A stretch of DNA of 64,000 bases from Spirosoma foliorum (GTDB lineage Bacteria; Bacteroidota; Bacteroidia; Cytophagales; Spirosomataceae): NCBI RefSeq assembly GCF_014117325.1, contig NZ_CP059732.1, forward strand, positions 5,593,001 to 5,657,000, in the 5' to 3' direction. The notes under the pieces are model-generated. The model was not told the DNA's origin. It saw only the letters and a program-made list of their open reading frames with translations, and made no database searches. A program made the position numbers and the translations under genes. This document shows positions 7,115 through 58,142 of the stretch, piece after piece (within the stretch, counting starts at the first letter, position 1; every line of letters begins with the position of its first letter).

Positions 7115-7810
7115 ATGTTAAAAAGTGTTTATAGGCTACTAAAATCTATTGGAGCTTTACTATTAATAGTTACGATTTTAATCAGTACATATTTACTTTC
7201 AGCTTATTTATTTTCAAGAGTTAGTGTCAATAAGAAGGATTCAGGTACAAATGATGTATCAATTTATATTCTTACAAATGGAGTGCATACAGACCTCGTA
7301 ATGCCAATTAAAAATAATCAAATTGATTGGAGTGATGAGATAAAATTTGAGAATACAGTCAGCAAAGACACTTTATTCCAATATGTTGCTTTAGGCTGGG
7401 GCGATAAAGGATTTTATCTTGAAACGCCTACCTGGGCAGATTTAAAATTCAGTACAGCATTCAAAGCAGCTTTTGCATTAGGCTCCACAGCCATTCACGC
7501 AACTTTCTATACAACTATGATAGAAGGTAAAGATTGCGTAAAAATTAAGCTATCGAAAGAGCAATACATAAAACTTATCCATTACATAAAAAGCAGTTTT
7601 CGTTTAGATGCAAACGGACATCTGATTAACATAAAATCGCATGCTAATTATGGTATCAATGATACCTTTTATGAAGCGACTGGCAGTTACAGTTTATTCC
7701 ATACATGCAATACATGGGCAAACAATGGACTAAAAAGCTGTGAGCAATTAGCTTGCCTATGGACACCTTTTGACACGGGTATTTTTTATCAATACAATCA
7801 ACATAAATAA
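7115..7810 (+). CDS. TIGR02117/DUF2459 family membrane-anchored protein
   Basis: The 231-residue protein has one N-terminal membrane helix (about residues 11-33). A soluble domain follows with the family's conserved blocks LTNGVHTDLVMP, ALGWGDKGFYLETPTW and HTCNTWANNGL, which identify TIGR02117/DUF2459. The family is of unknown function, named for occasional proximity to urease. The conserved His/Asp and Cys/Asn residues suggest a hydrolase-like pocket, but that is inference. Base composition is clearly more AT-rich than the flanking genes, and the downstream yiaA-like gene shares this, so the pair may have been acquired together. The gene ends 3 bp before yiaA. Confidence 0.8.
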   Translation: MLKSVYRLLKSIGALLLIVTILISTYLLSAYLFSRVSVNKKDSGTNDVSIYILTNGVHTDLVMPIKNNQIDWSDEIKFENTVSKDTLFQYVALGWGDKGFYLETPTWADLKFSTAFKAAFALGSTAIHATFYTTMIEGKDCVKIKLSKEQYIKLIHYIKSSFRLDANGHLINIKSHANYGINDTFYEATGSYSLFHTCNTWANNGLKSCEQLACLWTPFDTGIFYQYNQHK

Positions 7811-7813
7811 ATC

Positions 7814-8224
7814 ATGAATCAAAAACCATCCGCTGCATTTATTGGAGCTTCCTGGGTTGCTCTAGGAGTAGGTATGGCAGGGTACTTAGTTGGACTTTGG
7901 AGGTCTGAAATGCTTCTCGATGAAAAAGGCTACTATTTTACAGTATTGATGTATGGCCTTTTCTCGGTAGTATCAGTACAAAAAAGTGTTAGGGACCGAT
8001 TAGAAGGAATACCAGTAACAGACATATACTACGGTCTTAGCTGGTTTTCAACAATTTTATCAATCACACTATTAATTGTTGGTCTGTGGAATGCAACTCT
8101 CTTACCAAGCGAAAAAGGGTTTTACGCCTTTGCTTTTCTATTGGGTTTATTTGGTGCAATAGCTGTTCAGAAAAACACCCGTGATAGTCAGGCTATTGAT
8201 AGAAAAGATGGCCCTACGAATTAA
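7814..8224 (+). CDS. yiaA: YiaA/YiaB-type inner membrane protein
   Basis: The 136-residue protein is made of two similar halves, each with two membrane helices. The repeated signatures are [20 protein letters not shown] with a D/S-EKGYYF segment (residues 13-45) and a second GLWNA...[16 protein letters not shown] block (about 89-118). This is the duplicated YiaAB domain. It starts 3 bp after the DUF2459 gene and is almost certainly co-transcribed with it. The function is unknown; in Enterobacteria YiaA has been linked to membrane stress. It shares the AT-rich composition of its upstream partner. Confidence 0.85.
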
Positions 8225-54542: not shown

Positions 54543-54616
54543 GGGCTTGTAACTCAGTTGGTTAGAGTGCCTGACTCATAATCAGTAAGTCGTAGGTTCG
54601 AGCCCTACCTGGCCCA
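54543..54616 (+). tRNA. tRNA with CAT anticodon (Met elongator, possibly Ile2)
   Basis: The 74-nt sequence folds as a cloverleaf. The acceptor is GGGCTTG with CTGGCCC (one T-T mismatch), the D arm ACTC/GAGT, the anticodon stem CCTGA/TCAGT with loop CTCATAA, and the T arm GTAGG-TTCGAGC-CCTAC, with discriminator A. The anticodon is CAT. The acceptor does not begin with the C-A mismatch of an initiator tRNA, so it is an elongator Met or a lysidine-modified Ile2. The CCA end is not encoded. A perfect terminator hairpin follows at once. Confidence 0.9.
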
Positions 54617-54668
54617 CGAAAGAAAAAAGCCGCTTAACAGAGATGTTAAGCGGCTTTTTTCTTTCGTG
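54615..54668. terminator. Perfect 25-bp-arm terminator after the tRNA
   Basis: The arms 54615-54639 and 54644-54668 are fully complementary around a GAGA loop and contain AAAAAAGCCGCTTAACA, with a T-run on the far side. It can terminate both the tRNA and the convergent DUF3570 operon. Confidence 0.9.
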
Positions 54669-54700
54669 GTAGTACGTTTTTCTGGATTGATACCTCGTCT

Positions 54701-55906
54701 TTATTTCAGCTTGGCCAGGAACGTAATACTATTTGCGACCATGCCCGTACTCCGTATGTAATGACCGTAGCGTAACTCGACGCTTTGCCAATGCCCTGTA
54801 CCGAATAAGCCACCCGGCGGTGCCAGACGAATACCTAGTCCCAGAAATTGACTGTTGAAGCCAGAAATATCATAGTCGCTGGTGTAATATTGATCGGTTT
54901 GCTTGTGCTGACCATAAGGCGCAAAATAGCGCACGGCAGATTGATGACTGAACCGATAGAACGGGCTTGCCGATACAAAAGACGTTAGTTTAATGGGCGT
55001 TTCGAGATTGACAGTATGGGCCTGCATACCCCAGTCGTCAATGTAATAGCGGTAAAAGGTTCGGACAACGATTCGATCCCCCAGGAAATAGTGCAGGCGA
55101 AAGCCAATTGGCAGCTTCAGTCGATTACCGGGCAAACGCTCCACCGTTTCGCCCCCATCCTGAAAGTAAATCCGATGGAAAGGCGTACTCAACAGTCCCT
55201 GCTGAAAGGCCGGTTCAACGGTGAGCAGTACTTGTAAACGCTTATTGATAATCTGAGAGAGCGACAGACTTACGTTATAGGAATTACGGGGTTTATAATC
55301 GATGGGATCGCGGTCTCCATGAGCGCCCGAGCCATAACCTTCCGGCCTGAGTTCGGGGGGAAGAATGACCTTCCAGGTATCAAAAAAAGCACCTGCTTTC
55401 AGGCTTATTTCCCGGTTATTGTCTGCCGAAGCTTTGGCAAAACTGAGGTTAAGTCCGTAGGATTTGTAATCATATTCTGTCGAATAAGACAACGCCACTC
55501 CCTGCGTTGTCCGTCGGTCGTCGTTATGTACGCTCCAGGCAACCGATGGGTAGATATGGGTATCACTTCGAGAAGCCGACGACACCGTTAATGGATCGAT
55601 ATTATCGGATGAGGCCGACGTATAATGGTCGATGTTGAAATCGAAGGCGAGCGTATGCTGACGGTTCTTTCGGTCAGTCGTTTTCAGTACCAGATCGATC
55701 GATTGGGCAAAATCCGTGAGGTGTTCGGTGCCAATACCACCTGTTACTGCCGAATTATTGCCGTCCTGTTGGTAATAACTCGATACTAAATTAATCTCCT
55801 CAAGCTTGAGTTTACGGGTTTCATAGGCAGGCGGAGTAACCGATTGGCCATAACCCGCCCGAAGTAAACCAAGCAAAACACTAACAGATAAACAGATTTT
55901 TTTCAT
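54701..55906 (-). CDS. DUF3570 outer-membrane beta-barrel-like protein
   Basis: The 401-residue protein has a signal peptide (1-20, ending GYGQ) and alternating aromatic/polar strands throughout (for example HTLAFDFNIDHY, QVLLTVEPAFQQGL, RIVVRTFYRYYIDD). The chain ends ANSITFLAKLK, consistent with an outer-membrane beta-barrel. It matches the DUF3570 family, of unknown function. It is the last gene of a five-gene minus-strand operon after DUF4266, ApbE, thioredoxin-like and Rieske genes; the gap to DUF4266 is 11 bp. In that context it may form the outer-membrane part of a redox or metal-handling system, an inference from co-occurrence only. Confidence 0.85.
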   Translation of the reverse strand: MKKICLSVSVLLGLLRAGYGQSVTPPAYETRKLKLEEINLVSSYYQQDGNNSAVTGGIGTEHLTDFAQSIDLVLKTTDRKNRQHTLAFDFNIDHYTSASSDNIDPLTVSSASRSDTHIYPSVAWSVHNDDRRTTQGVALSYSTEYDYKSYGLNLSFAKASADNNREISLKAGAFFDTWKVILPPELRPEGYGSGAHGDRDPIDYKPRNSYNVSLSLSQIINKRLQVLLTVEPAFQQGLLSTPFHRIYFQDGGETVERLPGNRLKLPIGFRLHYFLGDRIVVRTFYRYYIDDWGMQAHTVNLETPIKLTSFVSASPFYRFSHQSAVRYFAPYGQHKQTDQYYTSDYDISGFNSQFLGLGIRLAPPGGLFGTGHWQSVELRYGHYIRSTGMVANSITFLAKLK

Positions 55907-55917
55907 CAGTCGAATGC

Positions 55918-56142
55918 TTAGTTACAGCCGCAGCCTCCCCCGCTTTTTCCACCATTCGCACCAGCCGCACCTTCGCGGTAGAGGTAGAAATTCTGCTCAA
56001 ACTTCTCCGACTTTCGGGCCGACAATTCCATTTCGGCGTCATTGATCCGACTTTTCTGATATTCTTTCACCGATACGCAACCCGATAGACCGAGCACTAT
56101 CAGGCTAGCTATCAGAGCCTTGGAGGCAGTTAGTTTTTTCAT
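55918..56142 (-). CDS. DUF4266 small lipoprotein with Gly/Cys-rich end
   Basis: The 74-residue protein has a lipoprotein signal (IVLGLSGC, lipid-modified Cys at about 22). A charged helix follows (INDAEMELSARKSEKFEQNF), a YLYREG motif and a C-terminal GGKSGGGCGCN tail with two Cys. This matches DUF4266. The terminal Cys-Gly-Cys could bind a metal or a modified cofactor. Family function is unknown. It lies between ApbE (6-bp gap) and DUF3570 (11-bp gap). The C-terminus is similar in layout to Cys-containing tails of small peptides processed by partner enzymes; this is speculative. Confidence 0.85.
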   Translation of the reverse strand: MKKLTASKALIASLIVLGLSGCVSVKEYQKSRINDAEMELSARKSEKFEQNFYLYREGAAGANGGKSGGGCGCN

Positions 56143-56148
56143 TGGTAG

Positions 56149-57102
56149 TTAGGCTACAGTAGGTGTTGTAATTCGAATATTAGTGGACGTATAGAGGGCA
56201 TCGAAATCGTCGATAATGATACAGGCGATGTGGCGCATCTGGTTAATCAGGTCTAAACCCACCCGCACACCCATCACCATCACGGGCGTAGCCAACGCAT
56301 CGGCCAGTTCAGCATTGGGCGCAATAATGGTCACACTTTTAATGCCCGATACGGGATAACCCGTTTTGGGGTCGATGGTATGGGCGTGTCGTTTGCCATT
56401 GATCAGGGCATATTTCTCATAACTGCCCGAGGTAGCGATGGCCATGTTACTGATTCCTAAATAGGAAAATGCCTGTCGATTTGCGCCATTGGGGTCAGCA
56501 ATGCCAATGGTCCAGGCTTGTCCGTTGGGTTGATTTCCCCAGGTAGTCAAATCACCGGCGGCATTGACGATCCCATTTTCAACGCCGTTCTGACACAAAA
56601 TACGCTTGGCCTGCTCAGCGGCATAGCCTTTACCGATGCCTCCAAACCCAATACGCATGCCTTTCTCTTTTAAAAAAACTGTCTGCTGATCCGCATCGAG
56701 TATAACATGTCGATAATTGATCAGTCGAACCAGTTGCCGGGCGAGCTTAGGGTCGGGTAAAGCAGTCAGTGTGGTATCGAAATTCCACAAGCGTTTATCA
56801 ATCGACCCGTATGTAATATCGAACGCACCCTGCGTTAGCGCCGATAGCCTTAGGGATCGCTCGATTAATGAAAATACCTCCAGATCAACCCGCACGGGGC
56901 GAATGCCCGCCTGTGCATTAATCTGATTCGTTTGACTATCGCTCTGGTAGGTAGTTAATAACTGTTCGATCCGGCGGATCTCGGCAATGGCCTCCTCAAG
57001 ACGTTCGTTGGCCCAATGGGTATCTGAACTGACAACGCTTAATTCGAACCGGTTGCCCATCAATCGCTCGACCCGTTGGTGGATGGCAGGCAACTCACTC
57101 AT
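56149..57102 (-). CDS. apbE: FAD:protein FMN transferase
   Basis: The ATG at 57100-57102 overlaps the TGA of the upstream thioredoxin-like gene (ATGA), giving 317 residues. ApbE motifs are present: MGNRFELSVVS near the start, FDITYGSIDKRLWNF (about 118-132), the GFGGIGKGYAAEQA block (about 177-190), NAAGDLTTWG and the C-terminal HAHTIDPKTGYPV (about 262-274). ApbE transfers FMN from FAD to a Thr/Ser of a target protein in the periplasm. No clear D-G-x-[ST]-G-A-[ST] acceptor motif is seen in the neighbours. A signal peptide is not evident, which is unusual, and targets may be elsewhere. Confidence 0.9.
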   Translation of the reverse strand: MSELPAIHQRVERLMGNRFELSVVSSDTHWANERLEEAIAEIRRIEQLLTTYQSDSQTNQINAQAGIRPVRVDLEVFSLIERSLRLSALTQGAFDITYGSIDKRLWNFDTTLTALPDPKLARQLVRLINYRHVILDADQQTVFLKEKGMRIGFGGIGKGYAAEQAKRILCQNGVENGIVNAAGDLTTWGNQPNGQAWTIGIADPNGANRQAFSYLGISNMAIATSGSYEKYALINGKRHAHTIDPKTGYPVSGIKSVTIIAPNAELADALATPVMVMGVRVGLDLINQMRHIACIIIDDFDALYTSTNIRITTPTVA

Positions 57103-57542
57103 TTTACAGATGCCGAAACGGTCTGTATCGTCTCCAGAAACGAGGACACAGTCAGCGATTGAGGATACCCTTCCCACTCTTTCAGAACGTGCCCCGACGC
57201 ATCGAGTAACACCGTAAGTGGAAATTTCCCCTGCCGATTGTAAGTCTCAGCAAGTGCCTCATTATGAGTAGTCTGGCGAGCATCGAGTTGATTTTTAGAC
57301 AGGCGAGGGAAATCCGCCCGAACCAGCACTAAGTGCTCCGAGGCAAACTGCCCGAATTCTGACGATTCGAATATGTTTTTTTTGAGTTTGATACAGGGCC
57401 CACACCAGTCGGACCCGGAAAAATTCAGTAAAATGAATTTGTGCGATTGCGCTGCTTCGGTTTTTGCCTGCTCAAAATTAAGCTGCCAGTTCGGAGCCGT
57501 TGTTAACAGACTAACGAGTAGGGATATGAGTACGAATTTCAT
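57099..57542 (-). CDS. Thioredoxin-fold protein (periplasmic)
   Basis: The 147-residue protein has a signal peptide (1-17, LISLLVSLLTTAPNW) and the redox motif WCGPC (46-50) in LNFSGSDWCGPCIKLK. The cis-Pro segment KFPLTVLLDASG lies near residue 105. It would reduce or oxidise disulfides outside the inner membrane, perhaps on the Cys-containing DUF4266 tail or the Rieske protein. Its stop overlaps the apbE start by 4 bp (ATGA), indicating translational coupling. Confidence 0.9.
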   Translation of the reverse strand: MKFVLISLLVSLLTTAPNWQLNFEQAKTEAAQSHKFILLNFSGSDWCGPCIKLKKNIFESSEFGQFASEHLVLVRADFPRLSKNQLDARQTTHNEALAETYNRQGKFPLTVLLDASGHVLKEWEGYPQSLTVSSFLETIQTVSASVK

Positions 57543-57569
57543 AGGATTTTACGAATGAAAAGTCATTGA

Positions 57570-58088
57570 TTAACTGTAAACAACCAGGGTTTTTCCGTCG
57601 GTAGCGGTCTTGTAAACCGCAATGCCTTTGCTGCCAAAGCTGTTTTTTCCTTTGCCCGTCAGGTCATAACGCGCTCCGTGTACGGTGCAGTAAAATTCTG
57701 TTTTATTAAAAATAATGGCCTTTTTAGGCTCATGACTACAGGTTTGGGTCACCGCTACATAGACCCCGCTACTGGTTTGAGCCACGACTATCCCACTCTG
57801 CACCAGATAGCCCCCGACGGTTTTCAGGGCCGAAGCCGCCGATGAAGTCAGGTCTATCGTTAGCAACCGATTGGTAATGGTACTCAGGTCCGTTCCATTG
57901 CTTGCTACCGTCGTGCTTGACGTTACTGTACTCGCTATAGGAGACGTAGTGGTACTCGTGGGGGCAGTAGTACCCGGCAACGAAAGCGCATTCACAACGG
58001 TATCTTCTTCATGGATACAGGAGGTCAACGCTGCCATCAAAGCAGCCCCCGTAAAGCCCATAGATTTTAAAAAGTCGTACCGAGTCAT
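57570..58088 (-). CDS. Rieske 2Fe-2S lipoprotein
   Basis: The 172-residue protein has an N-terminal signal with a lipobox-like ALTSC (Cys about 24), a long Ser/Thr-rich linker (about 40-75) and a C-terminal Rieske domain. Its cluster ligands are C-S-H (117-119) and C-T-V-H-G (134-138). The spacing of only 15 residues between the two ligand boxes fits simple Rieske ferredoxin-like proteins. It would carry electrons at the periplasmic face of a membrane. It is the first gene of the operon with thioredoxin, ApbE, DUF4266 and DUF3570 (27-bp gap to the next gene). Confidence 0.88.
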   Translation of the reverse strand: MTRYDFLKSMGFTGAALMAALTSCIHEEDTVVNALSLPGTTAPTSTTTSPIASTVTSSTTVASNGTDLSTITNRLLTIDLTSSAASALKTVGGYLVQSGIVVAQTSSGVYVAVTQTCSHEPKKAIIFNKTEFYCTVHGARYDLTGKGKNSFGSKGIAVYKTATDGKTLVVYS

Positions 58089-58122
58089 GTTTCTACAGTG
58101 GGGTAATAAATTAAGTATTTAT

Positions 58123-58142
58123 ACTACAATACGTTGTGTAGT
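58123..58142 (-). promoter_or_regulatory. Imperfect 20-bp palindrome upstream of the Rieske operon
   Basis: ACTACAATACGTTGTGTAGT is palindromic at 16 of 20 positions (ACTACAnnAC/GTnnTGTAGT) and lies 35 bp before the Rieske start. It is a candidate operator; no second copy was found in this window. Confidence 0.3.

Follow-up and report, generated by a model that had tools for sequence, protein, structure and literature searches.

A five-gene operon of Spirosoma foliorum that adds a Rieske protein to a published flavinylation system and may carry flavins on an outer-membrane barrel

The genome of Spirosoma foliorum is a single contig of 8.85 Mb (GCF_014117325.1, NZ_CP059732.1), and within a 64,000-nucleotide stretch of it (positions 5,593,001 to 5,657,000; hereafter the window, to which our coordinates refer) five minus-strand genes form an operon that belongs to an already published flavinylation system, with a Rieske gene added. 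In the direction of transcription, these genes encode a Rieske [2Fe-2S] protein, putatively a lipoprotein, with CSH-x14-CTVH ligands (57570..58088; PF00355, 29.7 bits); a thioredoxin-like protein with the sequence SGSDWCGPC and a hydrophobic N-terminus, judged by eye to be exported (57099..57542; PF13899, 49.4 bits); ApbE, a flavin adenine dinucleotide (FAD):protein flavin mononucleotide (FMN) transferase of 317 residues without a signal peptide (56149..57102; PF02424, 274 bits); the small lipoprotein DUF4266, with a lipobox at SGC22 (by eye) and a C-terminal GGGCGCN (55918..56142; PF14086, 72 bits); and DUF3570, a predicted 16-strand outer-membrane barrel and the presumed ApbE substrate (54701..55906; PF12094, 107.5 bits). 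A first-pass annotation of the same DNA, made from the letters alone, had named these families and their close packing; each assignment scored above its Pfam cut-off, and the gene coordinates bear out gaps of 27, -4, 6 and 11 bp. The ATG start of ApbE sits in an ATGA overlap, and the list of open reading frames offers a longer GTG start at 57177. The closest solved chain to this ApbE was 7esa, an FAD:protein FMN transferase (E 3.1e-49), while the Rieske protein weakly resembled Rieske structures of the b6f type (best E 0.003) and the thioredoxin was DsbH-like by NCBIfam, with a score below the cut-off. By DUF3570, the nearest relatives are other Spirosoma.

The operon is followed by an intrinsic terminator (54614..54669), a 26-pair hairpin of -43.6 kcal/mol (z -11.6 against 200 shuffles), which agrees with the strong terminator of the first-pass annotation and was absent from the output of a simple terminator scan. 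The hairpin abuts the end of a plus-strand tRNA-Met gene (54543-54617) and is therefore usable by both strands. The same annotation had pointed to a 20-bp palindrome ahead of the operon (58123-58142), in which 8 of 10 positions pair. We found no support for it as an operator or other regulatory site: 31 20-mers of the window pair to at least the same extent, and eight Spirosoma-type relatives do not keep it ahead of their operon. A promoter scan returned 6 sites, with 6.5 expected.

The combination of thioredoxin, ApbE, DUF4266 and DUF3570, with or without the thiol reductase DsbD, has been described as a flavinylation system (Méheust et al. 2021, eLife, PMC8238504), in which the DUF3570 protein of Chlorobium luteolum is flavinylated by its ApbE at two [S/T]GA[S/T] sites. 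Among 285 DsbD clusters listed there, 227 hold DUF3570, 221 DUF4266 and 183 a PF13899 thioredoxin; a further 316 clusters lack an adjacent DsbD, as does the window operon, and the Cys-x-Cys (CxC) tail of DUF4266, also present here, was already noted. As to kind, the first-pass annotation was right: it had proposed that a flavin, a small lipoprotein with CxC and an outer-membrane barrel work together in electron transfer in the envelope. The window operon differs from the described system in its Rieske gene, in a serine at the glycine of the flavinylation motif and in an ApbE without a signal peptide. "Rieske" does not occur in the main text of that paper, nor did we find matches there for beta-barrel, cytosolic ApbE or copper, and literature searches on DUF4266 and DUF3570 listed no further paper. 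One of our loci (L147) is from C. luteolum; its DUF3570 matches a protein named Pelodictyon luteolum at 100% identity, and one run of genes there holds a TlpA-like protein, DUF4266, DUF3570, ApbE and DsbD. As it is the only DUF4266 locus of that genome, we take it to be presumably the locus of the published flavinylation test.

The core gene set is widely kept. Using the window DUF3570 alone, we collected 71 named related loci, 67 of which hold all four core families, which argues that the arrangement is not due to chance. The four exceptions are a locus at a contig end (L030), one in which no ApbE was found (L044), one with a thioredoxin-ApbE fusion (L048) and one with a different thioredoxin (L072). 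In addition, 296 genomes sampled evenly across the phylum were searched for DUF4266 and DUF3570. DUF4266 was present in 83, all 83 of which also carry DUF3570, and DUF3570 in 86, about half of these being from the Chlorobium family (f17), the one that holds C. luteolum. From this sample we took 40 DUF4266 loci with ~6 kb on each side, namely 39 of the 40 listed outside f17 and the window genome, plus one f17 locus; ApbE occurred in 38, a thioredoxin recognized by our own model in 33, all four core families in 33 and Rieske in 9. The expectation of the first-pass annotation that DUF4266 and DUF3570 travel with ApbE and thioredoxin was hence borne out. In two loci (L142, L145) a DUF4266-DUF3570 pair stood with no ApbE or thioredoxin found nearby, and in L142 the preceding gene has a hydrazine-synthase-alpha-like domain. 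One genome (G253) has three copies of the operon (L134, L135, L136), one of them with a thioredoxin-ApbE fusion, and an f17 genome contains an open frame of 832 residues with two tandem DUF3570 matches, possibly a double barrel (G201:C45:38098-40488). Genes for DUF4249, thiamin pyrophosphokinase, NUDIX and uvrB, which neighbour the operon in Flavobacterium, look like lineage context rather than members of the system.

Where ApbE would act had been left open by the first-pass annotation, which saw no acceptor motif, although for the family the published C. luteolum substrate answers that question. The motif was missed because none of the five window proteins contains its strict form, [ST]GA[ST]. 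The relaxed form [ST][GS]A[ST], however, occurs in DUF3570 and in none of the other four, and it does so twice, a count reached by shuffled letters in 0.5% of cases. The Rieske protein, the thioredoxin and the lipoprotein can thus be set aside as acceptors, including the earlier suggestion that the Cys-Gly-Cys lipoprotein might be the substrate. The predicted FMN sites are D93-HYTSAS-S99 (55610..55630, minus strand), which aligns with the DxVSGAS of Chlorobium-type proteins, and S109-S-A-S112 (55571..55582, minus strand). S97, S99 and S112 are invariant across the 57 relatives aligned; glycine stands at position 110 in 10 of them, and A111 is replaced by proline or aspartate in 9. Both the DxVSGAS and the VSGAS of f17 proteins fall in the same columns as the window motifs; in C. 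luteolum itself, one motif lies in loop 1 and the other at the column of window site 1. Exactly two relaxed motifs were present in 126 of 155 non-redundant DUF3570 proteins, and that of L119 has the first motif only. Together with the published modification of the C. luteolum protein, this makes FMN attachment to the window DUF3570 likely, as judged from motif and alignment.

In structure prediction, the window DUF3570 was modelled as a 16-strand outer-membrane barrel, with an even strand count and both termini on one side. When the motifs of all 155 proteins were assigned by strand parity, 274 of 290 fell in extracellular loops (loops 1, 2, 4 and 5 of that predicted end), 16 at strands and none in periplasmic turns. 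In a separate model of the C. luteolum protein, loop 1 contains S78, and S122 is next to the tip of hairpin 3/4, both at the same end of the barrel. The motif-bearing end is also the more conserved one, with 2.90 bits in its long loops versus 2.31 in the opposite turns, and 2.99 versus 2.36 in the respective strand thirds. Structure matches of DUF3570 were generic outer-membrane barrels, none standing out as a functional relative. That flavin sites would lie where an outer-membrane barrel opens outwards, as predicted here, is stated nowhere in the papers examined.

The same holds for an ApbE that lacks an export signal and serves an exported substrate. The window ApbE begins 14 residues ahead of a conserved MGNRF and has no hydrophobic stretch, whereas each of the genome's three other ApbE proteins starts with a hydrophobic stretch, clear in one and weaker in two, and the automatic caller left one of these two unflagged. 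One of the genome's further ApbE genes, with a signal peptide, lies near a PepSY-type reductase and DUF2271 (L154:4526-8608) and probably belongs to a separate flavinylation system. We built a tree of 107 ApbE proteins, leaving out rows L010, L048, L060, L072 and L136 and sequences shorter than 270 residues. Signal peptides were labelled by eye (29 with, 78 without), as automatic callers erred (20 with and 87 without; 22 with and 101 without; those of L052, L057, L120 and L137, for example, were missed). A group of 69 that includes the window protein contains no signal peptide (branch support 100/98; the root is arbitrary), and the starred branches of the tree require at least three label changes. 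ApbE proteins of the MGN type lack a signal peptide in 67 of 67 cases, as does the ApbE beside the C. luteolum DUF3570. Given the missing signal peptide, we propose that in the window ApbE group FMN is loaded before export, a view towards which we lean slightly. In the published experiment the C. luteolum pair was co-expressed in Escherichia coli, by a strategy akin to signal-peptide-truncated constructs, and flavinylated DUF3570 was mostly insoluble (PMC8238504); a folded barrel therefore seems not to be needed, though this does not prove where modification naturally takes place. Klebsiella, too, has a cytosolic ApbE without a signal peptide, yet this enzyme modifies a soluble fumarate reductase (review PMC12052999), whereas the substrate of the window enzyme would be an exported outer-membrane protein. 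A programmed frameshift joining thioredoxin to ApbE would export the latter; among 75 loci with both genes close and no listed signal peptide, with the frame read by eye, 12 lack overlapping frames and the relative frame varies elsewhere, and we rejected this possibility.

On the thiol side of the system, CxC lies within the last six residues of DUF4266 in 141 of 141 proteins, 134 of which read GGGCGC, so that the conservation on which the first-pass annotation had staked its reading is there. The window genome encodes one DsbD, ~1.2 Mb from the operon, and no FMN_bind protein was found in it. In three loci, L010, L011 and L012 (two named Flectobacillus, one Cellulophaga sp.), a free DsbD N-terminal domain, recognized by Pfam in one and by similarity in the other two, is inserted between DUF4266 and DUF3570, near 7518-7985, and these loci have two Rieske genes in tandem, too. 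From the C. luteolum run with DsbD, the free DsbD N-domains and the conserved CxC, we infer an electron flow from DsbD to thioredoxin, on to the CxC tail and then to FMN. Rieske is a recurrent fifth member of the operon, present in 22 of the 71 named loci (seven Spirosoma, the others Flectobacillus, Arcicella, Leadbetterella, Lacihabitans, Jiulongibacter, Pedobacter-like and single cases) and in 9 of the 40 sampled ones. Its ligand pattern CxH-x10-22-CxxH was intact in 33 of 36 Rieske frames of related loci; two of the misses are pieces of split frames (L004, L010) and one is real (L109, one of the nine among the 40 loci). In the proposed relay, the Rieske protein probably acts as a one-electron partner.

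Taken together, a gene set and its conservation computed here, the published flavinylation in C. luteolum (PMC8238504), and a predicted barrel with predicted sites suggest that the operon probably passes electrons via thiols onto flavins fixed to an outer-membrane barrel. Probably while DUF3570 is still in the cytosol, ahead of export, ApbE would place FMN on its S99 and S112; the protein would then leave by Sec and insert into the outer membrane, with loop 2 displaying both FMN groups on the extracellular side. Reducing equivalents would pass from DsbD, whose gene lies outside the operon, to the periplasmic thioredoxin, which would reduce the Cys-Gly-Cys tail of DUF4266, and this tail may dock into the barrel from below and reduce the flavins, which in turn would reduce an acceptor at or beyond the cell surface. 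That the operon is the published system plus Rieske, and that it relays electrons from thiols to flavins at the outer membrane without heme, is our best explanation, to which we give an even chance. The narrower proposal of DUF3570 as a heme-free conduit, with two FMN at its extracellular mouth, charged by the CxC tail and, for Chlorobium and a large group of Bacteroidota, loaded in the cytosol, is put forward tentatively, as less likely than not.

Several observations weigh against this explanation. No acceptor gene is linked to the operon in the window, and no DsbD adjoins it, although the latter is true of 316 published clusters as well (PMC8238504) and so does not exclude membership. No Rieske gene turned up in 49 of the 71 loci, some of which lie on short contigs. 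Serine takes the place of the conserved glycine in both window motifs, and flavinylation is a prediction for this subfamily; in tested motifs, a change of glycine to alanine left about half of the flavinylation, and one of threonine to serine lowered it by 10 to 55% (review PMC12052999). Besides, 4 of the 155 DUF3570 proteins have no relaxed motif and 19 have one only, and in L109, L110 and L146, which have none, the corresponding residues are ASAS and S[ST]PS. The topology derives from two AlphaFold models, read without their coordinates, and from our own strand count, parity and alignment; loop 180-203 is poorly conserved (2.16 bits), and the motif loops could fold into the barrel lumen. As to cytosolic loading, signal peptides do occur on other ApbE proteins from operons of this type, and in two loci (L048:5948-7441, L136:4371-5930) a thioredoxin with a signal peptide is fused in frame to ApbE, which links the two proteins physically. 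Periplasmic flavinylation must therefore also occur.

If the loops do fold inward, as barrel loops can, the flavins might reach the lumen or the periplasm and keep envelope thiols reduced, with no electrons going outward. The links to thioredoxin, DsbD and the free DsbD N-domain are in keeping with such periplasmic thiol chemistry, yet none of the 290 motifs maps to a periplasmic turn, all loop positions being in loops 1, 2, 4 and 5 of the other end, and we consider this reading rather unlikely. Less likely still is that ApbE modifies some other, cytosolic protein and that DUF3570 is an unmodified barrel in the window lineage. The missing signal peptide, the loss of the motif glycine at both sites and the Klebsiella precedent (PMC12052999) would fit, but the motif serines are invariant in 57 of 57 relatives while the gene order stays, and the ApbE of C. 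luteolum lacks a signal peptide as well.

The flavin barrel and the CxC lipoprotein might instead reduce or pass on metal ions such as copper or iron, the relay serving their reduction, uptake or detoxification. CusA/CzcA genes lie within ~12 kb of 11 of the 40 sampled loci, against 0.35 (TIGR00914 above cut-off) or 1.3 (any match) expected from genome-wide counts under assumed independence. Over 141 loci scanned, 30 of which hold no more than ~3 kb, CusA/CzcA-type genes occur in 14 and a CopRS-like pair in 8; all five transporters tested by NCBIfam were TIGR00914 above cut-off. In eight loci (L052, L059, L116, L118, L123, L130, L137, L140), CopRS/SilRS-like two-component genes and CusA/CzcA stand in line with the operon; for both proteins of L116 and the kinase of L052 the best NCBIfam match was a heavy-metal family, below cut-off, and the other six were recognized by similarity. 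The iron transporter VIT1 is found in 25 published clusters, too (PMC8238504). However, the CusA link extends to 5 of 20 genera only, four of them through one genome each, and since seven of the 11 loci come from one genus the effective number is smaller. Some CusA/CzcA genes are on the opposite strand (L111, L127), a congener locus (L108) has none, and between 50000 and 64000 of the window no open frame reaches the size of CusA (the largest has 694 residues). We thus regard metal handling as improbable for an account of its own; it may be a sub-case of the thiol-to-flavin relay.

Mtr-type porin-cytochrome conduits combine an outer-membrane barrel with redox carriers, and to our knowledge the known outer-membrane electron conduits rest on multi-heme cytochromes. 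The window system would resemble the Mtr type in joining a barrel to redox carriers and in sending electrons outward, yet its operon has no cytochrome, its cofactors would be covalent FMN and cysteines, and we claim no sequence relation between the two. The predicted flavin position and the missing signal peptide open two sharp tests, namely whether the flavins can be reached from outside and whether DUF3570 carries flavin before its export. If our explanation is true, a barrel working with flavins and thiols would be a second chemical solution for outer-membrane electron conduits, and, with DUF3570 in 86 of the 296 genomes, not a rare one.

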